Below are positions 24,101 through 51,100 of a DNA stretch of 64,000 nt, piece by piece; position 1 is the first letter of the stretch; each line of letters begins with the position of its first letter. Below the pieces are notes generated by a model. That model made no database searches and was not told the DNA's origin. It was given only the letters and a program-made list of their open reading frames with translations. Source of the stretch: Stichopus chloronotus (lineage: Eukaryota; Echinodermata; Holothuroidea; Aspidochirotida; Stichopodidae); contig CM037840.1 in the NCBI GenBank assembly GCA_021234535.1, positions 28,905,520 to 28,969,519 on the forward strand. Direction: 5' to 3'. The position numbers and the translations under genes were made by a program.

Positions 24101-27100
24101 TGGAGGGGAAAAGTGGATAGATGGTGGTGTGGATAAGTATTCCTTATATATTTGTCTTGTTATTTAGTCTCTACTATTTTAGGATTTTCTCTCTTTTTTT
24201 TCCAATTTTTACAAGTTTGCATTGTACAGTTTTGTAATATTCTTTTTTTGTCTGTACTTAATACTGTAGCTGTACTTCTTTAAATTTAGACGAAAGAAAT
24301 CAAACATAATACCCTTTACAGGCCATGTATGTGGTATGGAAAATACCTGTTGTTTGTGACAAAAGAGTAATCTTTTAAGGGTTTTGGCTTTAATATATAT
24401 GGTAAATTTTTGTGACTGTTTTCCAACTGATTTTGTCACCTATCCATCTACAGCCAGTAGCTATGTCAAGGAGACAAAGTTTGTCATCCAGGGGCTCAAG
24501 AAAGGAACTCCTTACATCTTCAGGGTGTCGGCTGAAAACGAGATCGGTGTCGGTAAACCGTTGGAAGGAAAGGAACCTGTCTTTGTCAAGTCACCATTTG
24601 GTATGTCAGACCCATTTTTCTGATACTGAAATGATATTTTCTCTTCTTTTTTGGCATAGCAATCGCTGCCCATGATTGCCAAGGCTTTATCAATCTCACC
24701 TGTGGTGTGTTGAAACTGTACCATTGAGCTAGTTATTGACTTTTGTTCGATGCAATCTATTCCATCGGTTTAGTATGTCCTCTGTACTGTTATCTAACAA
24801 ACAAAGGGGAAAAAATGATAAAACTTATATAACTCCTTTTTTTTCTAATGTTTGTTTATCAACAGATCCTCCTGGCCCACCAGTGGACCCCGAGGTAACG
24901 GAGGTAGGCAAGGACCACGTAGAGTTGATGTGGAGCAAGCCAGAGTTTGACGGCAACTGCCCCATCATCACTTACATCATCGAGAAGAGCGAAGCCGGAC
25001 TCGACAGATGGGTAAGCCTCGATCCGGGATGTTTAGATTCCGGTTGCCGCATCACTGCTTTCCCTTCTTTGATCCATCTGATCTTTGGCATCACTTCGTT
25101 ATTGTGAAAATAAAAATTGCTCCTACATAGTTGCTGCCACCTGAAATGCCACAGAAATATGCTCCTTCAATAGAAGAATATCGTCTCTGAAATCCTGATG
25201 ATTGGACATCAAACTGGTCGAGGTCTTGCAGCAGAGCATGTTCCAAGTTTTTTTGTAAGATTGTGGTGTGCATCCGCTTCCCATCCAAAATGGACTGTTT
25301 AAATTATAAGATTAACCGTTTGCCAAAGACGAAGACGTCCCTTCGGAAAGGGGGAATTGTTAATGGCAGGAGATGGGAGCAACTGAGTATTAAATGTACA
25401 TTACACATGAGAGTGAACACGTTTATTGTCATTTTGTGTGTAGAAGAACATTCCATGTAAGAACGAAACATGCACAGTCCTGTTAATCAAGTTCGTCCCA
25501 AAGGCAACTTTGAAGTTTTAAAGTACTCTCTAGGAAAACAGAGACAAACAAAAAGCAGAAATCACATCCACTTTCAAGGTGCTGCTTTTTGCAAACCGCA
25601 AGGTCGCTCAATGTAGGTTTGCTTTCTTGAAAATACTGGATCCTTGAATGAAATAGCCTTTTTTTTAAAACAAACATGTTTTGCCAAGATGCTGACTTCA
25701 CCCATCTCTATATGCAGGTCCGTGTCAACCGTAACAACGTCAACACCTTTAACTATAGGGTGGACAATCTCATCGAAGACAGGGTGTACGAGTTCCGCAT
25801 CTCGGCCCTGAATGACGCAGGCCAAGGTCCGGCTTCGGAAACCACCATGCCGACGAGGATCAAAGATCCCCATGGTAACTGAACTGTTCTTTGAATCAGC
25901 CAACTCTTGTTTAATATTTGGACTTTGAATGCCAGTTGCAGTATGTATTAACATGGCTTGAAATAAGCAGAATTAAAATAATCCTTGAAATGGGCACAAA
26001 CAGCGTTTTTTTTTTCCACTAAGTTTCAGTGATAGATTTTACTGCATGTGCAGACCCTCAAATTTGCTACCAAATTTTCAGAAATCAAGTTTCTGGGAAC
26101 GGAGGAAAATAAAATGTAATACAAAATTTAAGCCAAATTTTCTGATTTTCAAAGCAGAAAAATAGTTGCTCGATCAGTGTTACTTGTTGAAACTCCACAA
26201 TCAGCAATGGCAAAAAGGTCAGCAACAGCAAAACAAAAGGCGTGAATTATTTCTGTCAGTATTTAAGGGGTATTTTTCAGGGGCATCAAGGCAAACATAG
26301 TAGGTAGATGGCTGCCCGCTCATAGTGCCCTCATTTATTTCGAGCTATGAATTGAAGGGGAACAGGGCATGTAGAATGCTCCAATATGGCAAACAACAAA
26401 ATAGCTTATATCACTGTTAGAGAATCTAGTCGCATCAACAAACATCTAAAAACGTTTCTTCTCCTGAAAACATCATGCACAAGAAGAGTTATAGAAGACA
26501 CATCATTTGAATTTTTGAAACTGTGGGTGATCGAATTACTCTTGAGAAACAAACAACTAAATGTCCGTCGGTGAGAAACAAAATTTTTGAAAAGAAAGAC
26601 ACTGCCCTGCCTTATTGTGAATAATCTATCACTCTGTGTTCATAAACATTGGTTGTGATAATTTTTTTTCTGTGAAACAAAACTCCCTATTTTCCTTTAA
26701 GATGAAGTATGTCCCAAAATTGCAGTCATAGTGACCTGTTGGTTTGTTGCATGAGCAAAGAATTTTGGTATCACAAACTGACACTTGCTAAAAGCCAAGA
26801 TGACAAATGTCTATCAACTTACATTTTTTTTTTCATATTTTTTTGTCATATTTTTTCATCTGCAGAGGTCCTCAAGCCGCGATTTACCGAGAACATGGAA
26901 AATGCGGAGGGCGAGGAAGGAAGATCGGTCAAGTTCACCTGCGGGTTTACTGGCAAGCCCGCACCAGAAATCAAATTGTGAGTGCAGATTGGCATAAGAC
27001 AAAATTTTGCAGTTGTGCAAGAAAATGGGAAGAAATGGTGGAAGATCATAGTACAACACAGAGAGTGTGAAAAAAATTGAGAAGATAAGAAAAATTGTGA

Positions 27101-30100
27101 AAATTGAAATTGTCCAAATATTTAGCAACTTTACCACCAATTCTGAACGAGTATCATGTCACCTATTGGAATTCAAGACTGCATCCACACTGAAAATGTA
27201 AACAGTCAATGTGGTCTTCTTGCTTAACTCGATAACAGTACCGAATTCTAGCTTTGCAAAATGGGATTTTTCATTCTTTTTTTGCACTCATAAATATCAA
27301 TTGAAATTTAGAGAAACAGAAGAAAAAATAGAAATTGGCATAATTTACGAAACATTAAATCTTGTCGTTAGGCGCAATGAAAATCTTTGATGGCGTGTGA
27401 TTTTTTCCAGCTTCACATGCACACATGTTGCTTGTGTACAATCTAGTGAAGGGCTATCTCTTTCTTGTAAAAGGATATTTTTTGTGTTGCTGATGTTGTG
27501 TGCATTTTATCTCACTTTGAGGTGTGCAAATACAAAACATTTTTCCAAAAATCAATCGATTGAGCGGGATACCTCGAGTCAGGGGTCAATCAAAGTATTG
27601 ATTTATTGATGTATCGATAATCAGAATAAATAATACATAATTATCTGAATGACCGAGGACAGCATACGACATCAATAAGTCGGGTCAGAAAATCAAATTT
27701 TTGGCCTGTCTCCCTGCTCTCTTGCCAGCTTTAAGGGACAGAGGGAGCTCTTCAACAATGACAAATTTACCATAAATGTAGAAGACGACAAGGCCACTCT
27801 GTCTGTCGGCAACCTCAGCGACGACGACGCGGACGAATATTCAGCAGAGATCAGCAACCGCGGAGGCCGTAAATACAGCCGCGCCACTTTGATTGTTAAA
27901 AGTAAGTCCGTTAACTTCAACAGGCTTTTCCATCTGATCAGACCAAATTCAGATCTATAGAATTACTATGGTTGCAACTGGGAGTGGAACAGAGGTGCCA
28001 AATTCATCTGCTCAAATTGATTAGCATATGGCTGTAAATATCATGCTATTCTTAAGCAGTGGCCTGCTTAGAGGAGACTTGGGTGCTGGCAGGACCATTT
28101 AAGCATGGCACCACCATCGGCCGGTGCAGAACGTACAAGACAAAGATTTTGCTCCATGTACCCCCCCCCCCCCCTGGTTTCAGGAAATGACAATCTCTAG
28201 GTCTTGTGAGATGTAACAAAATGTTAAGTAATATGCTTGCAAATTTGAATTCTTCAGTAGGAAAAATACATACACGGTACATGTGTCTTAGGACCCACCA
28301 AACATCTGTGAGAATTGACATGTCTGCATCTGTCGTGCTTGGATTTGAGAAAAATGTCGTGAGGAATTTGTCCGTTTATCTTGATGAGAAATGGAGACTG
28401 ATCTCACTGTCAGTAATATTTTTGCAATGACATAAAGCGTTTATTGGTATGTTTATTACCAATGATTCTAATATCATCTCAGTAAAATTATTCTTTTTCA
28501 TGTGTATTGCATTACATTGGCAACAACAAAAGTTGCTGGTTGCCAGGCACAACACTACATTTACCATCCAAAGTCAAAATTCATGTGTAAAGTTTCCCAC
28601 TCGTCCTAAATTCTGTTTCATGTTAGAGTCTTCTCCCGTAGAATTTGTTCAATTTTAATTCCACTACTGAGTTGTTCACAGCTGCATACAATCTCTTGTA
28701 TTTATCTCCAAACTTTCCTCATCCTCAGCTTCTCCAAAAATTAAAGTTCCCACTAAATATGAAGATGAAGTCCGATTCTTCAAGGGGGAATTTGTCAAGA
28801 TAAAGATCCCTTACACAGGCTTTCCTAAGCCAGAGATCTCCTGGGCCAAGGACGGGCAGCCGCTCACTGCGAATGTCAGTGCCACGCCGAGGTTTGCGAT
28901 CCTGACGATTGAAAACCCCACACGGGAAAATTCAGGAACATACAGACTGACAGCAGAGAACTCTGTAGGCAGTGATTCTGCCACCATCAGAATAAAAATC
29001 ACAGGTATGAAAGGTGTCGATTGCTCCGATTTAATAGCTTCATAGAAATATTCACTTTTTTTTCAGAATATGCATCATGTTAACGTCATTGCTTGTGTTG
29101 CTTTAAGGTCGGCATTGTTTTTGCGTCATCATAATTAAGGTAAACACATTTCAATTTAGCAGTCTGTGCTCTCTCTCCTTCCATTGTATTTTAATCAATT
29201 TCATCTTCTGCTTTATGTTAATCATATGTCTCAGTGCAGACTTCCTCTAATGGCAGAGCAGTTGTGGTGCGCACCATGATCTGGAGTGGGCAAATAATAT
29301 TACTGGAAGAATATTGACGAAAGAACTATTTTTTAAAAAATTTAAATTATTTGAAAGTTACTTCAAAAGTTCATTACCAAAATATTGGACATTTTGCAGA
29401 GAAACTTTACTTGGCATTTGAAATATACTTTGCGCCATTCTGCATCTGACCCTCTTCTGAAACAAGGGAAAAAAATTTCAAGGGTAATAAGCAATTGGAA
29501 CTCGAGCCCCGAACCCCTCTCCTGAGGACGGCAATTAGTGCCAGCCTGCTGCATCAACAGAAGTTTGTCATCTTGCACTTTATCAAATTTTATTGAGTAA
29601 GCTTGCCTCCCAGCATTGTTTCTTTAAATTATTCATGAGAATCTAGTATATTAATACCAGTATCATCTTTTGGGATGATGCATGCCTTAATTTTGCATTC
29701 GCCTGGCCTGTTATCATTGACGGTTTTGTGTTTCTCCCAGGTTAGGCTGCTGAAATTACTAGACTGAGGTGACCAGATACCCCTGATTTTTCTCTCAAAT
29801 TCTTTATTAATACACCTTATACAGAAAGAGAAATCAAAGTGGATGCCCTTTATCCATTTTGTCTTCTTTAAAACTCAGATGTTCCCCATGCACCAGAGAA
29901 TGTCAGGGTAAACGACATCAGCCACGAATCCGTAACGGTCTCGTGGACGGCACCACCAGAGGACGGCGGCACCCCGGTCACGGGTTACTTGATCGAGAAG
30001 GCAGACGCCGGTTCCGATGTATTCATGAGGTGCGCCACCTCCTCGGAAACAAACTGCACGGTGAACTTCCTCAGTCCCAACAAGGAGTATCACTTCAGGG

Positions 30101-33100
30101 TGAAGGCGGAAAATATCATCGGTGCCAGCGAACCCGCAGGGGTGAAGCACACCATCACAACACCAGGTAAATGTCCATGTTATCAGTTTAATGGCAAACA
30201 CTGAACTTCACTTTCTGAAATTTGCCGGCAGGACTATGCTCTATAACCTTATTATTCTTTTCTGTGTGAAAACACTAAACTAATGATTTAACTTACTGTT
30301 TGCAAAGAGACGGCACTTACGTTTGAAGTAATCCCTGTAGTTGTGCTAAATGCACTTAGAATACAGTGACATGGCATTAAAAGAAAATATCTTGAGCTGT
30401 TTGTTAAACTATTCAGTCTTATTGATAAACATCTACAAATAAACCATTCAGTCTCATTGATCTACAAAAGCCTCATCTCCTCACAGAATTATGCTTGTGA
30501 TGACAAAATGGAAGATGCATCATTTGAATTTTGGAAAGTTTGGGCGAAAACATTATTGTTCAGCAAAAAAATAATTTAATTTTGTCTGTTAAGGCCGCTG
30601 CCTTTCCTTATTTTGAGTGGCCTGTCATTCTGTCTCCACAAACATTGGTTTTTAAAAATGTGATTGTTTTCTGTACAACAAACAGATTATTTTCCTGTAA
30701 GGGATATTGATGATGATCATACCACCTGTAAAATATAACTATTTATGTCAACTTAAAAAAATTCCCCTCTAAATGTTTTAGTACTTCTGCAAAATATCTG
30801 CAAATCTGAGCAGCATCTTTGGCCATTTAACAAAGTAACTGCAGCAATAATACCATTGTTTATACAAAGTTTATTGTTCATTTTTCTGTAAGAAAGAATA
30901 AGAAGCACAAAGGTGTCTACTTTTGATCGTGCCTTGAAACACTGGTAAGTTCTTTTGCAACTCACAACTGAAATTCGTAGCCGTTGTTTCATTAAAATGA
31001 TAACAAGAACACAGATTGTAACCCTTTCTGTTTCTTTACACCCTCCAGAACCAGAACGTAAGATTAAATTCCAGTTGGAAGAGGAAGAGGAATCTGGTGA
31101 GTCTTTGACCGAAACCATAACGATCGTTACCCTCGAAAAGTTACAAAATGTTCCACATTTGAGGTAACCCAAAGATGTTAAAAACAAAATAATTCATGCA
31201 AATGTGGTTATGTCATTTGTAAGTCAGTTTGTGAATATTTTATTTTGATTTTTGGTTTGCTATCCTACAGCTGCACCTTCGAAGAGGGCATCAAGACGAC
31301 CAGCAGATTACGATTATTTGGGTGAGTTTTCATACCAACCATTTACATTTCATGCTACCACCACTCCCCTTCCCCCATCTTCCCTGGGAAAGGATAAGTA
31401 ACTTATCAAAGAAAATACAAAGTAACAAAATGTGATGGGGTGGCAAAGAAGAAAGAAGTTCAACTGACTGTTCGCAAAATAAAAAAAAGATTTGAAATTG
31501 CAAGCAGATGATTTTTTTTTTATCAGTAACTGAAGTGTATTTTTACATTCACTTTTGTGGTTGACAGGAGCAAAAATGGGGATTAGATCAATTTAGATAA
31601 ATTTTAAAGGAAAGTATGCAGCTGTGAGAAAGACTTTTGCATAACTTATCCTCCTTCATGTGGAAAACAGCCTAGAAGGTGGCATTAATAGCTGAGGAGG
31701 AGTAGAAACAGTAATCTGGCTAATTGAAAGGAAAATGACCAGATACTTGACAGGAAGGATCAAGGCAAATAGTAAATTTTGGAAGTCTCAGACTTTTCTT
31801 GAAAATGAGTATTAAAAGTGAGTATGAAATAGGTTGTGGAAGAGTAAATGAAATGATCAAAGCAATGGTGCCTGTCCAGAAAAAGGAAAAAAAAATTAAA
31901 CGGTACGTTATTGTTCCTTTACTTCATCTGCAATTTTAATTTCAGTCGATGACACTTTCAAAGCGGTCAAAGCCAGGTGGAGGAAAGGAAAGGCAGAAGA
32001 CAAATACGACATCATGGAAGAGCTTGGAAAGTAAGTGACCCCCCCTCATGCATAGCACTCTCTTCTATAGCTTACCCTAGTTGGCAGAATGATGGCAAAA
32101 CTATATCATGGAAAATTCATTCAGTGTTTTAATCATAAGATGGTTGCTATGGAAATAAGTTACATAAGATGACAAAAATGTGAGATGCTGACTTGTGAAC
32201 GAATTGCAACTTTCACCAATTGCTTGACACCTTTCTGTGGCCCCCATCATCCCCCCTCCCTTCTTCTGTCAATGCCTCCTGAAATGACTCTACACCACAT
32301 GTCATGCCTCTCGATTCTGTCCCTTTCGCTCAGGGGTCCATTTGGCGTCGTGCACCGTGCTGTCGAGAGGGCCACTGGCAGGAACTTTGCTGCCAAATTC
32401 ATCGACGTTGAACCCAAGGACAAGGCTCTCCTCAAGGAGGAGATGGAAGTGATGGGAAACCTCCAGCACCCTCGCCTCCAGAGACTCCACGATGCCTTTG
32501 ACCAGGATGATGATAAAGTCGTCCTCATCCTTGACCTGTGAGTCTTCCTCTTCTTCTCGTTAATTTGTGTAATGTGAAACTTTCAGAATGCAAAACTTCA
32601 GAGATTTTTGTCTTCAGCTATATTATTCCTGTCTACGGTATGTTGGTTTTTTTTTTTTAGGAAAAGTCTAAAAAAATAATTGTCTTTGTTTTACAGAAAA
32701 AAAATGATACTTTTGAAATGAGTTTTGACAGACACCAAACACTAGATTAAGGGGAATAGAGGCAGGATGGTGGCCCTTTTCTATTCAAGAAATAGGTGTC
32801 TCACAGATACACATTCAGTCATCTGTTGCTCAGGAATAATTTGTTCACCGAAACTTTCAAAAATTCAAATGATGCATCTGCTGTGAACTCATCTTATTCA
32901 TTATGCTTGGAAGAGATGAAGCTATTGCTGATGTTTCTCAGTGAGACTGAATGCATTAACAGTTATTTCCTTTTCATGTCATCTTTGAGCCTTGAACTTA
33001 ATACTTGCTTGTGGCAGTTATTAAACCATAATTTCGATTAGCACGTACTTTCTGTAATAATGTCGTTTGTGTTTATTTTTGCAGTGTCAGAACATTTATT

Positions 33101-36100
33101 GAATAGTGTGATGCAAAGTCATGCATCAAGTCAAGTCAAGTCGTGCAATCATTCATTTTCTGCTAAAACCTCATCAATGAATCACAGAAGTTTTAGTAGC
33201 ATTGCTAGGTTTTAAAATTGTATTTTTTTTTTACTTAGATATGAGATGACATCTTTTTAGTTTTCCCTTTCCTTGTCTTTCCGAGTTTACATCATGCTTT
33301 GTCAACCTGTCTACCCCCCCCCCCAAGTGATGGATGTATGCAAGTATGAAAACACCATTTACAGTATGAATAAAGTGTAAATAAAAAGTAACTATTTTCT
33401 TGCTCACTAATGATTTGTTTCTCCTTTTCTTTGTAACTGATTTTCAGTTTGAGTGGTGGTGATGCATTCCAGAGAGCCAGAGACCTCGGCTCACTCAGTG
33501 AAGATGAAGTCCGTCTTTACACCAAACAAGTATGCGAAGGTCTGTTGCATATACACAAGGAAGGCTACATGCATCTTAATATGAAGGTCAGTCTTTACAT
33601 CCCTGCCCAACTCCAATCTTTCCTCTTCCCCTCTCCCCCCAAAAATCTCCACCCCCAAAAAAGGAACAAAGCGTGCATCATGTGCTTTAAAAGAAGAAAG
33701 AAGCAATGGTTGGAGATAGCTTTTGGTACATGTTTGGGTGAAATCCTTACACTGCTTGTAAATACTATATTTGTTGACCACCTAAGTGCAGGAAGAAATA
33801 GGACTGGTTTCCTTGAATGAATGAATGAATGAATGAATGAATGAATGAATGAATGAATGAATGAATGAATGAATGAATGAGCAATTAATGAATGAGCAAT
33901 GAATGAATGAATTTACAAATTTTATGTTAAAATAGAGAGAAAAAATGAGATGAATCGTATGGTTATGGAAATGTTTGGTTGATGCTTTGAGAGACAAGCA
34001 GTAATCCAAAGTGCTATATTCACACTCATTTTCATGGCAGATGTTACTCATTTTCAGTATTTCAAAGAATGAACATCCATCACAAGTCATGAGAGATCAA
34101 TAAATCAAAAGTGAATGGGAGTTTATGTCATCACCACAATGGCAAACTCTCGGCATTCATTGCCTGGTGTGTAATCAAACATGTAGTGTCACAGTGGGTC
34201 TATCTGGAGCTTGTCAAGTTCAGTGTTTTCACCAGTGGGTAACCATCCCACACAGGTCACACACATCCATGTTCATTGAAAGTAAAGGAATTCAGTGGAG
34301 AGTGAGGGCGGTATGAATTGTAACCAAGGTAAAAGCAGAGGCAAGGCGGGATCATTGCTCAAGACATGTTTTGTCCTCATTCCCACATTCCTTTCATCAT
34401 TCACACTTCTGAAATCTGTAAAAAGCGACCTCTGTTGGCTAGACATCATTCGTAGAAGTACATATGGATTGGAGGGCTGATTAATCTAAGACATCAAACA
34501 GCGACATTGTCACAAGAAAAATGCTGGTACTGTCAATGGATGCTTCCTTTTGCAGTTCTAAAATGCGAATGTTCTGTGGTGAAGTTTGATGTTAGCAAGC
34601 TTCTTAATGCTTGTTTCAATATGTCCTCCGTCTAAACTTCAGAGGTTGTTTTTTTTTTCATCACCAGCCTCAAAATATTCTCTATGAGACCAAGAAGTCA
34701 GATTCTCTCAAGATCATTGACTTTGGCCTGGCCATCAAGCTCGATCCCGACGAGAGGGCGAAGATCGTCCAAGCCAAGCCAGCCTACTCCGCACCAGAGG
34801 TCCTCAACAACGATGCCGTCGGCTTCGGCACGGACATGTGGACCGTCGGTGTCATCGTCTACACCCTGTGAGTGATCCTGAAATAAAATTTGGCTCAGAG
34901 TTTCAAAGATGTATGCTTTTAGCGTCAGTCAGATGTTTATTGCGACATTTCTGTCATCCAAAACCTCGTCACAATACTACATATAATGTGGCAATGTATG
35001 ACGGTTCATCATTTGCAGCGTAATTTTACGGAGAGTTTGCCTAACGATAAAAACTGACCACCCACGTTACATAATTGCTTGTATGTGTCGTTGCATGAAA
35101 AATTTGGAGACTGCTGGCAATTCAGGTAATATTATTAGCACATCCGCCAGAGATGTGGCTTTGTTAATCCTGAGTTCACCTGTTTGAGTTTTCTTGCTCT
35201 CAGCCCACGAATTTCCTTAAGTCTTTGGTTCCTGTTAGAGACATACTAAATACATTTCCCCATCAGGTTGAGCGGTATCCATCCTTTCGACGAGTCGGCC
35301 GACAAAATCAAGAGCTGTGATTGGAGCTTTGACCGCAGTGCTTTCCGTGAAATCTCTGAGGACGCACAAGACTTCATCTCAAAACTTTTGGTGAAGAGCA
35401 AAGAGTATGTCACGTTTATTTGTTTTTGAATGTTAAAAATGCTCTGGACAATCATGAGTATCTTAAAGTTATGCCAGTAGAATCTTGGATTTTTAACCAA
35501 AGCATGTGGATAATGTCTTTGCGGCCTTCTGCTATATTCTTACCTCCGTGTCGGTGGCAACAGGACTTTCTTGGTAGATGCTAAGGAACTGTTGGCTCTG
35601 CCCACCAACCGCAACTCTAGAAGCGCAGTACTCATAATAGTGTTGTCATATTTTCAGTTCAGCTATGTAAATTTGTGAATACTAGTGTATAAAATGATGT
35701 AGAATGTTAAAAGACAGCTCTGTGTCCAGCATCTTTCTTGTCTACGACTGAAACCAAAGACAGATGAGAGATGTAGAAATGGTCTTCCCTGAAATCTAAA
35801 GACAATCACTAATGTTGATGGAGTCCAACCTTGAAAGAAGCTGCAATAGAGTTTGCCCACAGCTTCAGTTAAGGCAAGAACAATTGTCCCCAGTAGCTTG
35901 CTCTTTTTAAAGCAAGAGGAATTGTCCTTGATAGTCTGTTGGGTTTTAAGTGGTTGTTTGGGTAGACTGAAAATAAAAACATTTAAATTTCATGTCCAAA
36001 AGTCTAATATTTGGTTTGATTGCATCATCCAGACAGTTCTGGAGAACACGTAGGATTTCACTTTCTTTTAACAGTGTTAAATGCTATAATATAGTGGTTG

Positions 36101-39100
36101 ACAGTTTTCATACAACTTAACCGTGCGATTCTTTGAACAAGGACAACGGGAAATGTAATTGTAATTAATATTCAGTTAGCCAAGACATCCAGTCACTGAT
36201 TCCAAAATTACATAAACTAGGTCATTTGTTAATTCAGTCTTCCTTTTTAGTATTAGGATTCCTGGTAGCAATCAAAGTGCAACAGCTTTAGTAGTATGTT
36301 TTTGATACACCAGTGAAACCTGTACTCTTGCATATTCATTGGGTATGGGCTTAGGATAAAAATCTTTTTTCTTTTTGAGTATTTTCCTTTTACTGCTCTT
36401 ACGCTGTGTCTGTTGGTTTTTCAAAGTAATTGCTGTTATATCTTATTCCTGAGCGATGTATTCCATTGTGAACAATCTCACATGTACATTTAGAAATAAT
36501 GAAAAAGTTAAGGTCAAACTTAATCTTATTCTTCTGGTTTTTCAGTAGACATGCAGTCATTTTAAAACATGTGCATTATTCCCAGATACTTAGCTTCTGT
36601 GAGCAAAAATGTTTGTCCCAAATACTTCACTTGAATTAAAGTAAGAACAATAATCACTTATACTTATCTTAAATTAAATAAAAAACAGTTGTATTAAATA
36701 TTTTGCTTGAATGGAAGCAAGAGCAATTGCACCAGATACTTTGCTTACATTATAACAAGAAGCATTGCCCTAGATACAGCACTTTTTGGGGAGATACTTT
36801 GCCCAAGTTAAAGTATGAGCAATTGCCCCAGAAAATTTGCTTAAATTACGGCGAGAATGATCTTTCCACATAGTTTGTTTAAAGAATTAATGTACCAGAT
36901 GCATCATTGAAAGCAAGAGCATCTGTGCCAGACACTTTGCTTAACACAAGAATGATTTTTCCCAACGCTTTATTTCTTGTACATATCAGACATACTCTTC
37001 ACGCTGGCTGAGTAATACATGAATTGTTGTAGTCAACTGCAACCATACATTCATGTCATAGTATGTCATGATGTGAAAAAGTTTATCCTATTAATTTATA
37101 AACTTGATTGTTGATTTTCTTTCTCCTCACAGCGAGAGAATGGGAGCCCACGATTGTCTCGATCATCCGTGGTTGAAGGTTTGTGTAAAAAATCGCTACT
37201 CTGCGCTGATGTGAAACGTTATATCACCTTTGAGACCTCTCATGCTGTTTAACACCAACCTTAACAAAACTTGCAATCGATAGAACTACTTCCTTCCTCC
37301 ACTTGAATTAGTGGGAGGTAGATCACATTAGATTAATTCAAACACATTTTCTTTACTAAGGAAGAAGTTAATGTCAAACCGCTGTCAGACCTCGGACATG
37401 TATACATATCCTGTTTACACAATGAAATGGTTTGACAGAGAATAAAGTCGATTGACTTCTGCTTTGCACTTTTTTGCAGGGCTCCAGCAAAAACTACAAA
37501 GCTCGCATCGATGTCAGCAAGCACAAGGCCATGTGTGAGTCCAATGACTGGATAGTAAGTATCGCCTTTATAGTGTCGCAAGGGTAGTGATGCGTGGGTG
37601 AGGAGGTGTGGACAAGCATCGATGCTGCTGCCGTAAGAAAGGCATTTGTTTCCAGTGAGTCTCAGAATATTGAGATATTCTCTAAGGAGTGCATTGGGGA
37701 TCGCTGTGAGGTAGTGATGGAATTCTTGAAGAGGTGGTTGGCAGAAGGGGGTGGGGACGGAAGAGGAATTAAAGGGAAATAAGGGGTTTGTTTTACAGAA
37801 GGCAACCATATTTTTAAAACCAATGTTTGTGGACGTAGAATGATAGATTATTCACAATAAGGAAAGGCAGTGGTCTTCTTTTCAAGAAATAAGTCTCTCA
37901 CAGATAGAAGTTCAGTTATTTGTTGCTCAACAATAATTTGTTCACCCAAACTTTTCAAATTTCAAATGATGCATCTTCCGTTACTCATCACATGCATAAT
38001 GTTTGGAGGAGATGAAGCTTTGGCAGATGTTTATTGATGAGACTGAATAGTTTAACAAAACTGAAGATATTTTCTTTGTATGCCATGTTGGTATATTCCA
38101 AACGCCCTTTTTCCCTCTAAATGCATTTGTTGCAAGGGGTTGACAACGTCTTTTCAGACTTGCTGTCAATCCTTTTAAACAGATCGGTCAAGGTAAGCAA
38201 AGGGCAATCAATCCTGATGGTACAAATTCTCCTCTGTACACTGTTCTGTGCTGTGCAATATAATCCTTCAATGTATGCACAGTACAGTAATGTCCTTCAC
38301 TGTCATACTCAGTGCACTAATGAACACAACAGTACTGTCTGTTATTGTAATACTACACTACCTCATTGTTAATACAATACTGGCCTTTACTGTCCCTTGT
38401 TCTGTCCTGTTTCAAGGTCTCATGTACCTGGTGGCTGCAGTTGTTCGCTTTGTCAATGAAAAGTTACTGTACTTTTTCCTCGAAAAATACTCTTTTGGAA
38501 TGATCGTTGCTGTTCCCGATTCAATACTTTGTCAAATTTCATTAGTCAATATCCTCTTCTTTCCCTTCGTCTCAAACATTCCAATTTAAACCGACAGAAA
38601 TGAGGCAGAGGTTAAAAGAAATTGCAAAGGTGTACTATTTGGTTGCATCATATCATTCTGTAAATGAGGAGGGGTCTGTTAGCTGACATTCCGCTTTATA
38701 CAAATCTTCCCTTACAGGAAGGTGAAGCCACTCTTCCCATTGGTCGTATAGCTGCGTACGGTGCTCACAGGAGGAGGCGACCTCTGCAGAGCGACACCGT
38801 CATTTTCGAAGCTCGCATCGGTGAGTGTGCTGTTGGCAATTATTACTGCACACTTTATAGGCACCTCCCCTTCCTACCATCTCTCTCCATCGAACTGTAA
38901 ATAATCCTGACATAACAAATAGAAAAAGAACCAAGTGAATGTAGAGATTGCATGTGACATGAAGTCGTGTTGCTTTAAGTATCTTTCAAGATTGTTCCCT
39001 TAGATTTTTTTCCTTTTTTTTGAAGAGGAGGGGCTGAGCCAATGATGTCCATGTTAAGCATTGTTTTTGCTGTTAAAATTAAAAGGAGATGATAAACTCA

Positions 39101-42100
39101 TTTTTCTTCAATGAGAAAATTTGTGTGAAATGTGGAGGGACTTGTATTCCAAGTTTGGTGCTGCTCTGCATGGTGACTTTTTCAGTTACTGATTAAAAGT
39201 TTCTTTCACATATTTCCCATTTGCTAAACACAGTGTCAAAAATTGAATAGGGCCCCTTTTTATCACAGGTTCTTTAAATTTTTGCCTTTTTCCCCTTTTG
39301 GTCTACTTTGCAGACAAGAAGGATGCCAAACCACGTTTCCTGAAACGTCCACACAACATTGCTCAAATGGAAGACAGAGACATTGCCTTCCAGTGCCATG
39401 TGGCTGCACCGGTAGATTCAGATGTTACCTGGTTAGTATATCATACCACAATGAGAAACCATATGATAACCATGTGAAACCACATGTAACCATGCAGATA
39501 TTTACCATACTAATCATCCCCAAACTAGTCAGTGTTTACTATTGAATTATTTAATTCTCTTGACATCAGAGTGAAATATGTATCAGGCCATGTGAAGCCA
39601 TATGTAACCATGCAGGATGTCATAGTGTAATATGTATCAGAGCTTGTGATACCATGTGAAGCCACGTGTAACCATGGGGAATGTCAGAGTGTAATATGTA
39701 TTAGACCGTTTGATACCATGTGAAGCCGTATGTGAACATGCAGAATGTCATAGTGTAATATGTATCAGACCGTGTGATACCATGTGAAGCCATATGTAAC
39801 CATGCAGAATGTCATAGTGTAATATGTATGAGACCGTGTGATACCATGTGAAGCCACATGTAACCATGCAGAATATCAGACTGTAATATGTATCAAACTG
39901 TGTGATACCATGTGAAGCCATATGTGAACATGCAGAATGTCATAGTGTAATATGTATCAGACCGTGTGATACCATGTGAAGCCATATGTAACCATGCAGA
40001 ATGTCATAGTGTAATATGTATGAGACCGTGTGATACCATGTGAAGCCACATGTAACCATGCAGAATGTCAGAGTGTAATATGTATCAAACCGTGTGATAC
40101 CATGTGAAGCCATATGTGAACATGCAGAATGTCATAGTGTAATATGTATCAGACCGTGTGATACCATGTGAAGCCATATGTAACCATGCAGAATGTCATA
40201 GTGTAATATGTATCAGACCGTGTGATACCATGTGAAGCCATATGTAACCATGCAGAATGTCATAGTGTAATATGTATCAGACGGTGTGATATCATATGAA
40301 GCCATATGTAACCATGCAGAATGTCAGAGTTTAATTTGTATCAGACCGTGTGATACCATGTGGAGCCACAAGTAACCATGCAGAATGTCATAGTGTAATA
40401 TGTACCAGCTCAGTTCATTGGAGAAATACTCAACAAAATCATCAAGAGCAAACTTTCTTCATTTTTCTTTATGAAAAGCCAGGAAAAGAATAAGAGAATA
40501 CCATTCAGCATTGTAAAGGAATAAAATATTCTCAAAAACGTAATTAAGTTCAGTAAACAGTAGACCAAATTTTACGAGGCCATTGGTATTTTTTTTTTGG
40601 TGAAGAAAAAGGTCAGTACCAACACAGCTACAATGAAAATGTAGCATGTACTTGTTTTCCAGAGTACAGCAGGAATATGGCTGATCGAGTGGGCTTGGAA
40701 AATGGAAGGAAATACACTTAAGGCAACCCAAGATTATGCAAGCATTCTAAACTTTATTTGGGTCCTGTTCCTCTGCAATTCTTCTTGCATCCCCAAGACA
40801 TAACAGAAATTGCAGAAGTACCAAAATTTGCAAAACAAATGGAGTACATTGACGGTTAACTTCATTACTATTAACCTTACACTGTAAACCTCTCAAACGA
40901 TTACAAGGAGAGCTTGAGTAATATTTCCTTTTTGTATTTTTCTTGTCTCCCAGGTACCACAATGGTCAGCAGATTAAACAGAGTGTCAGACACAGGATAT
41001 CCTATGACAAAATCTTCCACAACCTCAACGTCATGAAAGTAACGGAGGCAGACCAGGGAGAGTACACCGTCAAAGCGGTCAACCAGTACGGCGAGATGAC
41101 CCACACAATGAATGTGGAAGTACAACGTGAGTGGATGACATTGTCAGTGACGTCACACTGTTTCTTTTTTTTCTCTGCCCTTTGTCTGGTGCTAAGGTTG
41201 TTTATAGTTTTTTTTATTTTTATTATAGTTTTTTTTTTTTTTGTCTGCGTATCCTCTGATTGTCCTCCTTTTGTTGAATTGTTCCCCATCATCGCATGAA
41301 CATCAATATAAAAAAGAAAGCCCTACAACTCACGACAACTCACGAAACACTGATAAAAGACACATGTGTAGTTTCCAAACATGCTTGCAATCACCCAATG
41401 AGTAAATGTTCAATTTTTCAGCTATTCAGCAATGGTGAAGTTTGTTTACTATTGTTTGCTCCGCGGAACCTGGACGATGACAGCAGGATTGGGTCCTGAA
41501 ATTGCTCTTCTGATCCCAATTTTCACTATTTACATACATCGTATGTTGGAACAGTTCATTGTCATGCAAGTACATAAGCTAGCTACATGGTGTTACAGTA
41601 TATTAACATGCAAAGTCGATGATGTATTATGACTTTACAATGGACTTGCAGTTGAAAGAAAATTATCTTTTGGGTCACCCAGGTGGCCAACCCACTATAG
41701 ACTTCAGGTATCCTGGTCTGAATTTTTGTTCCTCTAACTTTGAATTGGTCTTCTGGATTTCGTATCAAATCGCCAGTTGATTCCAGTGTGTTCTGCAGGG
41801 CATCTGGACATGTCCTCTACAAGGTGCCCATCACAAGGGGTTAAAGGGGCTCATTTAGTCGCTGTTGGTAGGTGTGAGTGAAATACCAAGGGTAAAAACA
41901 CATGGTAATGCTTGTAATTAGCATAAGTTGTGAAGTTTCACTTTCAATAGTTATGAGAACAGGGAAGAAAAAGGAATGTTTGACTTTGGCACTGCATGAC
42001 ACCGGCTGTGTAAAAATGCAAAAATGTCTTGTCACGAATTTTCAAGAATCTAATGGAATCACTCATTACTAAACCATTATTGTCTCTCTGTATGTGACAC

Positions 42101-45100
42101 CTGGGGTGATCCACGTGATCCTCTTGGTGATCCACTTGTCATCAGTATGTGAAGAAAACTTAACAGGTTTAGGAAAATGACCTGAATTTCATGACGCATA
42201 TCAATGGGCCTCTTTAAAAACTGCGAAAAGAATGGGAAATGTTTTCATTTATCATTTCGACAAGACTTTCTTTTTTGCTTTTCAGATGATCCACTGAAGA
42301 GAAGAGTAAAACTTAAACCAAAGTAAGACTCAATGTTTGTCAGATACAACTGTGATTGTTTCAGTAAATAGTTGGTTCCATGTCTTTAAAGTTATCTCAC
42401 ATTTTATGATGATGAAACTAAACCTGGACTCTTTGAAACTATACTTAATGTTGATTATTCACCTCTTTTTTTGTCTTCGTGATTAATGCACTAAAGAAAA
42501 ACTTTCGTATTGGAAGTACTTCTACAATGCAATGGACATTTTCAAATACTAATGAAACACAATAAAGAATGTGCATCATAACCCCATCCTGTTACAGATA
42601 TGTAGCAATGCCAATGCCAGAGAAACCAACCCACCGACCAGAGTTCACTTTCCAACTGAGATCAAGAACAGTCCAAGAAGGAAGCCACGCCAAACTCAGT
42701 TGTATTGTCCACGCATATCCACCAGCTAGAGTGAGTTACCACCAATTTTTGATTGGACGTTTTTATTTGTTAACACCACTTAATTGATTATGCTTCTACA
42801 AGCCCCAAAACTACTGCAATCTAAAGCTGGTAAAACAGCCTGGGACTTCCTTTTTGACAATAAGTTCTACTTCTTTGCAAAACATCTGAACTCCATTCTC
42901 CTGTAGTAAATCAATATGTAAAACTTTTAAACTGAAATTTCTACCAACCCAAAACTTCATAATTGAACATATTATCATCACCGTCTAATCGTCTTTTGAT
43001 GGCCTTTTCAGGTCAGGTGGTATTTCAACGGCAACGAGGTGACTCGCTCAGACCCGGACATGAAGCTGGAATTCTCCTATGGAATGGCAACGCTGGAGGT
43101 GGACAGGATCATGGCGGAGCACTCCGGGAAGTACACCTGCACGGCCTACAACGAGGTCGGGGAGGCCACCACGGAGTGCATGGTCCGCGTACACGGTAAC
43201 GACCTGCCTGCCCAGTTTGACGTGGCCACCCTGCAGGCCCGTCTCCGTGTCTCCTGCATGGGGTTTGTACCCAGGAGGCACCGTTACTACTGAAGAGATA
43301 GAGACACAAGGATATGGCATGCGGTCAGCTTGCATGGTTTGAAAATAGCCGAACATTGAAAACCGTCTCAACCTGCAGTGTAAAGATGGAATGCACTGAA
43401 GGAAGCTGCTAGTGGCTTTTTAAAGTGTCATGAAGTCCATATTGGATTTAAAGTAGAACAGTTAATACCATATGAAGGCATAAAATGTTTACACAACGTA
43501 TTTTGAATTGATAGCATTTCTTCTCTTTTTCTCTTTAACTAGGAGTTTTAAATTGTTGCAGAGACATTTTTCTCTCCAAAATGTGTGAAAGAGGCTGATG
43601 TAGATAATGTAGCTGGTTTTGTGCAATTCTGAGCATGTCTGTAAATTTAAGGACAACAAATACTCTTAAAGAAATTAAAACTTACAAACTGAACCGCCAA
43701 TATTCATATCATCAGAGAATGATGAATATAGCTTTTAACTTCAAAAGTGCAAAAATTTGGTCTCCTGAGTGTCAAAATTCTTGCTCCAAGTCAATGTAAC
43801 AATTAATAGCCTGTAATTGTGACACATTTACATCAATGAAAGGCAGTTGAAGGGCTACCCTGAGTTGTTTTTTGAAATTCACCGGATGAATTTTTTCAAA
43901 CCTGTCAAGTTTCCTTCGAATGCTAATCACAGATGGTCAAACTCAGAGGATCTGCATATGTCACATGCAAATGAAGATGAATGGGTGAGTGAATTAATGA
44001 TTCAGTTTGGATTTCGAAAATTCGTGATCAGATATTTTTCACGGTGGTACTAATTGATATACACACGCAGCCAGTACAAGCCAGTGTCAAAAATTTAAAA
44101 AAAAAGATGTATAATGAAAGTTTGAATGATGCAGGTTACTCAAGTGGTTGTACTCTTCAGAATCTTCACAAACTGATTAATATCATACTCAGTGTGAAGC
44201 TATTAGGTCATTTTGATCTTAACCATTTATTCATCAAATTCCACATGAGGCAGGCAGTCTAGGTTTTAAATCCGTAGTATTTTTGGTTGGTCTAGCACCA
44301 CTGAAAATCTTCAGCAATCCCCCAGAGAAAAGGACCAGTCCACTATCTACTGAAGGTGAGGTTAAGATTATGGTTTCACACATGGTAAATGGAATTGGGA
44401 TAATATGAAGTGGGGGTATGGGGTAGGATAGAGTTCAAGTGTATAAATTCGAAGGAGGATTGTGTATTTGCAATACAAGAGCTGTCAGAGAATGTTATTT
44501 CCCCCCAAAGCTCTTCATTTACTATCTGTAGGAAGCAAAAGCTGAACAAGTTGACAAACACAGAATAAAAGTAAGAGATTCCTGCGACTTGAAAAGTCTG
44601 CTGCAAACTGTTTAAAAATTAGGAAGAATCACTTTATTGATCCTCGAAAATGAAACCATAGAGCTCACATTACAAATAGGAAAAAAAGCGCAATCAAAAT
44701 GAAAAACATAAGAAGAACAGATGCACACCATGAGGAATGAACGTGAAACGCAAAATTAAGAAAATTGAAGTTTATAAATTAGAAGAAATAGGACACAAAA
44801 ATAGGACATAAAGGGACGTTGGTTGCCTGAGTCTTATCACTGTGCAGAAAGCGCATATCCTGTAAATTGTATGTGAAGCGGGTCACCACTGTCAGCTCAG
44901 AGGTGACTCAAGCTCTGCTAGCTACCGGTAACCCATACTGTCTAACTGTTGCATACCTTGCCAGAAACAGTCTCACTTACTTGACAAACATCTGGGTCAC
45001 GTTTTCTTCAGTTTTAAGTAGAGAAAAATTGACAAAGTTTTGAATCACAAGATGCCAATTGGGATTTTTTTTTCTGTTAAAGTGTGTTTTAAGAGAAATT

Positions 45101-48100: not shown

Positions 48101-51100
48101 ATAGCTGTATTTCATTCTTTGCTGAACTTTTGTGTTTCATCATTAGCTGAACACTCGTATTTCGTTATTAACTGAATCTAATACAGCTTATTTCACAGTT
48201 TTTTTTTTTTTTCAACATTTTTTTAAAATTGCGTTTAGCTCCCAACCCGACCGCTCCATGTTTTCAAAGTTGTTCGCGAAGAAACACTGTAACGGGCCGC
48301 ATTGCTGTTGCAATGGAAAAACAGAAAAAAATCACCGGAAAGTCGCAAAAACTTCGCGTGTTAAGTGCGCGATAATCTTTAAACATATGTATAAAATCGC
48401 GCGTTATGTGGAAAATGTATGCATACATTACACAGCACGCCAAGCGCGAGAAACGTTCGTGTTGTGGGGAAAACTTTCTTTGCCGGGAAGCAACGAAAAG
48501 CCAGTAATACCTTGGTGGGGATTTATGTTGGGAAGCGCGCGAAAATTTTTGGGTACGTGTATCCCACCCTACCGCTACAGAAATCTATAACTTATATGCA
48601 GTTTCCGCGGATTATTATATTTTTAAAAAAAAATCCCTCTCGGAAAAGTGGGGAGACTAATCCTCCACCCCGTGTGTTTGTTTTTGCCTCCTAATTTCAA
48701 ATGCTTAGTTGAAGAATATCGGTGTCTGATTCATTTGGTTGATTGTTGTTACGGAAACGAGCACATCATTTTGTAGATACGTCGCAATCACCCAATCTAC
48801 TAAAATTACGTTAACTTTAGTCTGTTTCCAAACTAGCGATGAAACCTCCATCCTAGCAAATAGCTTAGCCTGAAATCTTGATGATTTTCTTCTTTTGTTT
48901 TCTCTTTTGCTCTTGCTCGTAGAGATGTAAAATAAACCCCGTTTAAGGTTTTCTTGCCCGTTTATTTCCTTCATTCATTTTTGTATCTCTCGCATGTTTT
49001 CCATTTTGTTTTGAAGTGTCGTTTGGCTCATTCATAATCGTTAAGTTTAATAAATTTTGCCGACATTGTAACGTGTATTTCTTCTACAGATTGTCATACT
49101 ATAACATTCTTTACATGCACCGAAGTGAGGGGGTGGCTCCCCTTTTAGGGGGTCAAGATGTACTGCAACATGTCTCCCCCCCCCCCCCCATTAATCTCTG
49201 GGCCGAAAATATCTCCATAACTGTATCACATCACCATCCACGACACCTCTGTTGGGTTGTATTTCTAGCCTACGGTACTATTCTACTTTTATTTATTAAT
49301 GAATACATAGATGGTGGCTATGTATAGCCTAATATTGCCCCCCAGGATACCTTCCCTTGAACGTAGTCCAATGACCGGGGCCATACTTTTACATTTCTCA
49401 TCATATCCCCCATCAAATTTTAAAAATGAATCCCCACCTCTACTCCCATTCATCTTGCAATCACTTCTAAATGTCTTCACATGTCAGTGGGCTGTCCAAA
49501 TGCATGTTTTGTCCCCCCCCCCCCTCCCACAAATGATAACAGAGTTGGAAGTTTTAAGCCACTGTAGTGGGGCAAAAATGTTCATCATACAATTGGATGC
49601 ACATATAGGTACTGCAATCCTTCCAAATTATTTGGAACATTTTTGGTTGTGACGCAAAGAAGCATCACTGGACAGATTCGATTGTTTCCATACACTACGC
49701 GCACTCATGCCCACAGGGAAAAAAGTTTTGACAACTAAGTCACACTCTGCGATACGATCAAACCAAATGTTCTCGACGTTTATTATTATTAATATTTTGA
49801 AATTATCCCCGAAGACGACTAGGTTAAGAGTTACGTTAAATTGCGTAGAATAGGTCTAGCTATAATTGGGAACAAGGTATTGATGAGTAATCGGAATTCA
49901 AAACGTTTTGGGGTGGCTGAAAGAATGTATCAGGGGAGAAATAAGGTGCGTTTTTATTGGCTCGTTTCCTCTTCTTTACACAATTCTGTCATTTCATCTC
50001 TACAAGCAAAAATCCACCACCGAAATGATCGACCACCCCCCCCACCCCCCCCCCCATATCATATTGTGTGATGTATTTCATTTTCTGCATAGTGTCCTTT
50101 TGAGGAATTTTGAGTTCGTGTGCATCTCCGTTGAGTGTCAGGAATTCGTTTTTGTTTCTCGAATCCTCTCCCCCCCCCCCCCCCACATTCTACAACCACT
50201 CTCCTCTGCTTCACACCCTCTCGATATCTTAAAAAAATAAAAAAACAATGTGTGATTGATGACGTCGTGCGTTACTTTCGTAATCATCTTTTCTTTCACC
50301 TGATAAAATGTGAATTCCTTGCAGTCGGTAAAGAGAAAGCTGAACCAAGGGTATCGAGAACATCCAGAAAAACGAAAAGGGAAGCATTCGACGAAGAATT
50401 CGAAGAATTTAAGAGGCAGGAAGATGAAGACATCGCCGCCAGGAAGATTCAGAGAGGTCTGAAGACGATGAGGAGCAGGAGCAGGACAGAGGACGGTAAG
50501 TTGAGATCAGGGAGCTGTGATTCGGAAGGATCGAAAGTCAGCTGGGAGTTTATCGTAATGCTTTTGGCATTTTGCCTGTGTGATACGAGTTTCATTTAAG
50601 TCGTGACTACGCACTTTCTCTTCCGTGTGATACATCCATGTCTAGTTAGTATCCAAGCAACCGTTATTCATACCAGTGCTTTTACCCAATTGAGTAGGAT
50701 TACGTAAAACAATGTTCTGATGCCGGGGACATTGCCGATGTTCAAGTTCTGTTTGCGGACTGTCAATCACTGGCTCATAAGTCAAAACGATTGCTTGTAA
50801 TCTCTTCGAAATCAAGATAGAACAGTTGGATGTTGTTGAATGTAGATATGAGCCACGCGGAAAAGGCAGAAAGTCTATTTTTCTTTTCTTTTTTTTACGT
50901 CTAAATGAGACATTTCCTGAAATGTCCTGAAATAGCCATGTGCCAATTCTTTTTCATGTTTTAACTTACAACTTAAATGTTATAACACACACACACATCC
51001 TGCCCCACCACCCAAAAACCGCACACAAAGATCAAACACACAGAGCTATCCCGGTCTCAAGTTTACTTGAAATAGTCATCGGCATAGGCACCCATCCATT

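Follow-up and report, generated by a model that had tools for sequence, protein, structure and literature searches.

A twitchin-type kinase domain with asparagine in place of its catalytic aspartate is a predicted pseudokinase that keeps its ATP pocket and regulatory tails

A kinase domain of the titin/twitchin type, encoded in the C-terminal part of a giant Ig/Fn3 gene, carries asparagine at the position of its catalytic aspartate. We consider it rather probable that this is a twitchin kinase domain turned pseudokinase, which has kept its ATP pocket and tail plug and would serve as a force-gated scaffold rather than as an enzyme. The gene lies on the plus strand of C12:28905520-28969519 in a 719 Mb genome, and this stretch of 64,000 nucleotides is called the window below. 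Phosphotransfer has probably been lost, as predicted from the residues that are changed, and the domain may have a role in scaffolding or stretch-sensitive docking, by analogy with what is thought for vertebrate titin kinase.

Ig/Fn3 matches found by domain search span bases 16 to 58243 of the window and continue into the 10 kb upstream of it, and none was found within the 10 kb downstream. A model of 15 exons from 28729 to 42322, with GT-AG borders and a single open frame of 659 residues, encodes the domain order Ig-Fn3-linker-kinase-tail-Ig (Table 1), in which the tail was assigned by alignment with 1kob and the other domains by Pfam. When applied to the spliced model, Pfam reports Pkinase with an E-value of 3.2e-60, I-set in two stretches and fn3 in one. 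The kinase domain extends from 32002 to 37178, with the tail running on to the Ig exon at 39314, and its glycine loop is split across exons 31946-32030 and 32334-32537. An earlier note on this DNA had given the range 33448 to 34867, which contains the exon with the Asn codon but spans only two of the kinase exons. Of two automatic gene models, one bypassed the catalytic exon via a spurious path, and the second favoured the 15 known exons by homology; several small exons of both are probably spurious. The predicted exon 42598-42730 of the additional Ig has a weak exon score, but also a homology match.

Table 1. Features of the kinase region, in window coordinates
Feature	Coordinates	Strand	Basis
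Ig (I-set) exon, 5' of kinase	28729..29004	+	exon model, Pfam
Fn3 exon immediately preceding the N-terminal linker	29879..30166	+	exon model, Pfam
N-terminal linker (NL), three exons: 31049-31096, 31271-31321, start of 31946-32030	31049..32001	+	
YD motif in NL	31309-31314	+	alignment with titin NYD..VDET; motif per PMC12862963 (available part)
Kinase N-lobe: exon 31946-32030 from 32002, and exon 32334-32537; GKGPFG, alphaC Glu	32002..32537	+	
AAK lysine codon	32395-32397	+	N-lobe exon 32334-32537
Kinase exon with YMHLNMK at its end; Asn codon AAT at 33578-33580 for catalytic Asp	33448..33586	+	
Kinase exon PQN...DFG...AKPAYSAPE	34668..34867	+	exon model, alignment
E170>Q; Asn171 kept; DFG (in exon 34668..34867)	34671-34673; 34674-34676; 34719-34727		
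T201>K; E203>A; APE kept (in exon 34668..34867)	34776-34778; 34782-34784; 		
Kinase C-lobe end, exons 35267-35404 and 37133-37178; alphaF-alphaG loop shortened	35267..37178	+	
C-terminal regulatory tail (CRD), exons 37480-37554 and 38718-38820; PIGR-IAAYGAH-R	37480..38820	+	
R-7x-R of CRD, Ile at -2	38745-38771	+	motif per PMC12862963 (available part)
Ig after tail, exons 39314-39431 and 40954-41126	39314..41126	+	exon model, Pfam
Additional Ig, predicted exons 42598-42730 and 43012-43214	42598..43214	+	homology, exon prediction

The introns of this region also hold repeats. About 13 copies of a 64-bp tandem repeat occupy window positions 39460-40463, in the intron that splits an Ig domain, and two dispersed pairs were observed (32779-32884 with 37876-37981, 85% alike; 26491-26553 with 30508-30570, 75% alike), whose copies possibly belong to a mobile element family.

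The best matches in the PDB are Aplysia twitchin 1kob (E-value 3e-93) and C. elegans twitchin 1koa/3uto, followed by titin (4.2e-65). Using a 2574-residue spliced model as the query, restricted to the kinase region, we found P0232 ('twitchin-like') of Saccoglossus kowalevskii, which is 49% identical in the kinase and 41% identical over 1274 collinear residues, kinase included. A tree of 39 kinase rows places the window kinase among the twitchins: it pairs with Saccoglossus (100/97), and the pair joins the protostome twitchins (99/97, with a bootstrap not fully settled). Together with the PDB matches, this tree supports the twitchin-like identity that had been proposed earlier. Further membership features are the order Fn3-linker-kinase-tail-Ig, the YD motif of the linker, and a CRD with R-7x-R and a C-spine residue at -2. 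With human titin added to a shorter alignment, the window and Saccoglossus are still paired (98/98). In two near-identical runs of this kind, the union of the pair with protostome twitchins received 80/90 in one and was unrecovered in the other. A union with titin was not rejected in the run recovering the twitchin grouping (p 0.44) or in the other (p 0.63), in which window, Saccoglossus and titin together were 2 log units better than the free tree. Since the placement with human titin is unsure, we describe the domain as a titin/twitchin kinase of twitchin form. To judge from the Saccoglossus ortholog, the gene belongs to Ambulacraria and is probably an ambulacrarian twitchin, a giant muscle protein. 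Three homolog searches covered proteins from 0.55 to 1.75 times as long as the query (at most about 4500 residues) and listed 350 different proteins, taken from the best 120 each of 1159, 1827 and 191 matches; among these, no closer ortholog of an echinoderm or another hemichordate was found by source name, many matches being nameless.

Exon 33448-33586 (LSGGDAFQRARDLGSLSEDEVRLYTKQVCEGLLHIHKEGYMHLNMK) has an in-frame AAT at 33578-33580, and the catalytic loop reads YMHLNMK/PQNILYE, where the slash marks a phase-0 intron. The Asn reported in the earlier note is therefore borne out in a spliced, open kinase domain, and the glycine loop, AAK lysine, DFG and APE that it listed are all found in the 15-exon model. 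Between 32600 and 34660, 52 AG-GT candidates of 60-260 bases are open and in phase, and no alternative exon encoding Asp was present among them. In five of them the translation ends in HxD/N-x-K; these five share the end at 33586, and all read Asn. Three paralogous kinases on C20 of the same genome keep HLD and DFG (further C20 matches, near 2.7 and 2.9 Mb, lie outside these three).

Residue numbers are those of PKA, and we take the corresponding roles to hold for window residues 166, 170, 201 and 203 and for the ATP and metal sites. Twenty-five kinase rows with Asp, from 23 proteins, have 29 invariant columns, and the window breaks two of these, namely Asp166>Asn and a Thr of the alphaG loop; among 46 columns conserved at at least 95% it departs at four, including Asp166 and Glu170. 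The nucleotide and metal residues are intact at nine of nine positions (G50, G52, G55, K72, E91, K168, N171, D184 and G186). On the substrate side, four residues differ (Asp166>Asn, Glu170>Gln, Thr201>Lys and Glu203>Ala) and the P+1 loop is altered, although Thr201 and Glu203 vary in the wider family, and thus their change is weak evidence. The Asp of HxD, expected of an active twitchin kinase, is replaced by Asn, and of the three residues of which a pseudokinase lacks at least one (beta3 Lys, HRD Asp and DFG Asp), the HRD Asp is the only one absent. The lesion first described, Asp to Asn with Lys and DFG kept, accordingly stands, but that description had missed E170Q, T201K and E203A, as well as the kept linker and tail motifs. 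Saccoglossus departs at more conserved columns (3 of 31 and 7 of 50), one of them the HRD His, so that the catalytic loop drifts in this lineage, with Asp still kept there. A shortened alphaF-alphaG loop was considered as a pseudokinase mark and rejected, because it is common to Saccoglossus, which keeps Asp.

Among the matches listed, 406 kinase matches cover the Asp166 column, with Asp in 315, Gly in 50 and Asn in 41; these counts are no census, as fly obscurins weigh heavily in them. Most of the Gly166 rows belong to proteins that bear the name obscurin or unc-89, and the 41 Asn166 rows comprise P0132, the bivalve proteins P0283 and P0292, 35 dipteran obscurin-type second kinases, and the unnamed P0121, P0122 and P0164.

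In twitchin and titin, linker and tail wrap around the kinase. The regulatory tails of twitchin kinases are described in the available part of PMC12862963 as bearing a YD motif in the linker and R-7x-R in the tail, with a residue at -2 that fills the ATP pocket and is commonly Leu or Ile in active twitchins. The linker of the window (DYD..VDDT) aligns with titin NYD..VDET, and its CRD reads PIGRIAAYGAHR, with Ile at -2 as in TwcK; the tails of Saccoglossus and P0132 have R-7x-K. The second Arg of R-7x-R is paired to the catalytic Asp in twitchin structures and in medaka TKb (PMC12862963, available part), and that of the window would face Asn.

Because the catalytic base is lost and the substrate face altered, very low phosphotransfer is predicted, whereas the kept ATP residues predict nucleotide binding, and the kept tail anchors predict a pocket that stays plugged until force opens it. 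In resting muscle, the ATP pocket would be filled by the C-terminal tail, with Ile at -2 completing the C-spine and R-7x-R clamping the hinge and the catalytic loop. Muscle stretch would then peel the tails off the kinase, and the exposed face, carrying out little or no phosphotransfer, would be a docking site, gated by force, for nucleotide and/or partner proteins. Saccoglossus, the sole ortholog seen, keeps Asp, so conservation of the loss draws no support from that ortholog.

Several other readings need to be weighed against the proposed pseudokinase scaffold, two of which concern the Asn codon itself. It seems improbable to us that AAT is a wrong assembly base or a polymorphism in an animal whose usual allele is Asp. 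The codon, as read from the assembly, differs from GAT by a single transition. In one of the three C20 paralogs the exon ends CATCTTGATATGAAG before GTGAGG and resumes with CCGGAGAAT, encoding Asp with the intron at the same position as in the window, where the exon ends CATCTTAATATGAAG before GTCAGT; the two ends are identical over 15 bases except for this base. However, the flanking intron start differs from that of the paralog, and E170Q, T201K and E203A, in a separate exon, point the same way as the Asn. Nor was a near-identical second copy found in the assembly: when the animal's own genome was searched at the protein level (123 of 164 candidates scored, with 61 matches), identity to the kinase exons exceeded 80% at no locus but this one and was at most 51% in the other matches. 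Recoding, by A-to-I editing of AAT to GAT in muscle transcripts or by deamidation of Asn, could switch activity on, and we regard it as very improbable. A single inosine would make AAT an Asp codon, and the T on its 5' side suits ADAR, but of the 24 inverted-repeat pairs listed in 32300-35500 none places an arm over 33578, and the exon with part of its intron is no more stable than shuffles when folded (z -0.53). Neither analysis revealed an editing hairpin. Asn-Met is a slow deamidation context. Deamidation was raised for PSKH2 in PMC9988210, which notes, in the part available, no evidence for it.

The remaining readings accept the Asn and differ on what the domain still does. Asn might lower phosphotransfer rather than abolish it, leaving a very slow or autophosphorylating kinase, and the intact ATP and metal residues would suit this, as would HER3 and JAK2 JH2, which have Asn here and are weakly active (PMC4718504 and PMC9988210, available parts). 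We nevertheless judge such residual activity unlikely, given that the substrate face is changed as well (E170Q, T201K and E203A) and that PSKH2, with Asn, has no detectable activity and is also inactive when its Asn is converted to Asp (PMC9988210, available part). At the other extreme, the gene might be decaying and its kinase domain without function. An essential residue has been lost, and the kinase sits on a long end branch, with 0.62 changes per column where the median is 0.35 and Saccoglossus has 0.51. Yet none of the 15 exons or their splice sites is damaged, most conserved columns are unbroken, and the kinase is 49% identical to that of Saccoglossus against 41% over the collinear stretch, so that decay appears very improbable.

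A comparison with characterized systems places the predicted pseudokinase nearest to the twitchins. The Aplysia and C. elegans twitchin kinases (1koa, 3uto and 1kob) share with it the linker-kinase-tail arrangement, YD, AxK, Leu or Ile at -2, and R-7x-R. Their catalytic loops carry HLDLKPEN or HLDIKPEN; in the window this segment is HLNMKPQN, and the P+1 loop is changed. Saccoglossus P0232 is an ortholog with the same shortened alphaG loop, but it keeps Asp and PEN, has Tyr for the His of HRD (YLDLKPEN), carries R-7x-K in its tail, and finishes with seven acidic IQ repeats; no more than one degenerate copy of these is seen in the window. The seven similar repeats occupy P0232 residues 1308-1656 (e.g. 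IDIDLDDPETEKAALKIQASFKGLKARK), resemble PEP-19/PCP4 modules, and form a possible calmodulin-binding tail on a giant muscle protein. A predicted exon at window positions 50325-50495 contains one degenerate stretch resembling an IQ motif, AARKIQRGLKTMRSR, which may be left over from Saccoglossus-type repeats; Pfam gave no IQ match in the window stretch scanned.

Vertebrate titin kinase is likewise a titin-like kinase with mechanosensory tails and is termed a pseudokinase, with Asp kept and with AxK changed to MAK and DFG to EFG or ELG (PMC12862963, available part). The window is the reverse of this, in that AAK and DFG are kept and the catalytic Asp is changed; the titin signature of a bulky AxK residue and Glu in DFG is absent. 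The suggestion of a route different from that of titin consequently holds, but to treat Asp>Asn as unprecedented would be an overstatement, as it is present in PSKH2, HER3, JAK2 JH2, P0132 and fly obscurin PK2. To our knowledge, the pseudokinase domains of PSKH2, HER3 and JAK2 JH2, which like the window have Asn for Asp166, have no Ig/Fn3 filament context and no stretch-sensing tails.

Sarcomeric kinases without this Asp are also found among the obscurins, with Gly in arthropod PK1 and Asn in dipteran PK2. PK1 additionally has Asp for the metal residue Asn171 and only a short tail (PMC10129394, available part), whereas the window combines Asn166 with Asn171 and has full tails. Fly PK2 is also without Lys168, which the window keeps. 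In Drosophila melanogaster, PK2 (P0271, residue 3701) reads HLNIQPDN, that is, Asp>Asn and Lys168>Gln; Asn is also found in other dipteran obscurins, and the PK2 of a bee, two aphids and one beetle that were looked at have HLD. PK2 is described as probably active in the available part of PMC10129394, where Drosophila PK1 (Asp>Gly) has no detectable activity, binds ATP without Mg2+ and interacts with PK2. From these residues, both fly obscurin kinases may be degenerate. In the CAMK-group protein PSKH2, Asp>Asn is the defining change and activity is undetectable, and natural Asp-bearing PSKH2 orthologs are inactive too (PMC9988210, available part), so this one residue need not decide activity. 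PK1 and PSKH2 are the closest measured precedents found.

P0132 is the other Asn-bearing twitchin-like protein. Shared descent of P0132 with the window kinase was rejected (AU p 0.00096), and by this comparison Asp>Asn arose separately in P0132. Compared with P0001, its record is 41 residues short between the hinge and helix alphaE; it also reads DFA, and may therefore be incomplete or faulty. A second twitchin-like group contains P0132, with HLN and DFA, and P0004, with HLD and DFS; as read from these records, catalytic motifs are relaxed on another branch of the twitchin tree.

The kind of change described here is already known from titin kinase, obscurin PK1, PSKH2 and HER3. Invertebrate twitchin kinase is called active in the available part of PMC12862963, and the kinases of C. 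elegans and Aplysia are described there as catalytic and tail-inhibited. No twitchin pseudokinase was found in the titles and abstract starts of the papers listed from the literature searched, which was mostly outside subscription journals; three sea cucumber papers among them contain the word twitchin. In the available part of PMC12198301, a kinase tree legend names acorn worm and sea urchin, and the word 'catalytic' is absent from the main text.

These results bear on the question of whether titin-like kinases sense stretch via phosphorylation or via force-gated docking. A twitchin-type kinase whose tails and ATP pocket are normal but which has no base would separate these functions naturally, as a counterpart to vertebrate titin kinase, whose ATP side is altered. 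A broader reading, which we offer tentatively and hold to be somewhat doubtful, is that both deuterostome titin/twitchin branches gave up phosphotransfer by opposite routes, the vertebrates on the ATP side (AxK and DFG) and an ambulacrarian lineage at the base and substrate face with its ATP side intact. If this is true, the titin/twitchin kinase domain would not need catalysis for mechanosensing, and in its ambulacrarian form would act as a scaffold that binds nucleotide and is gated by stretch.
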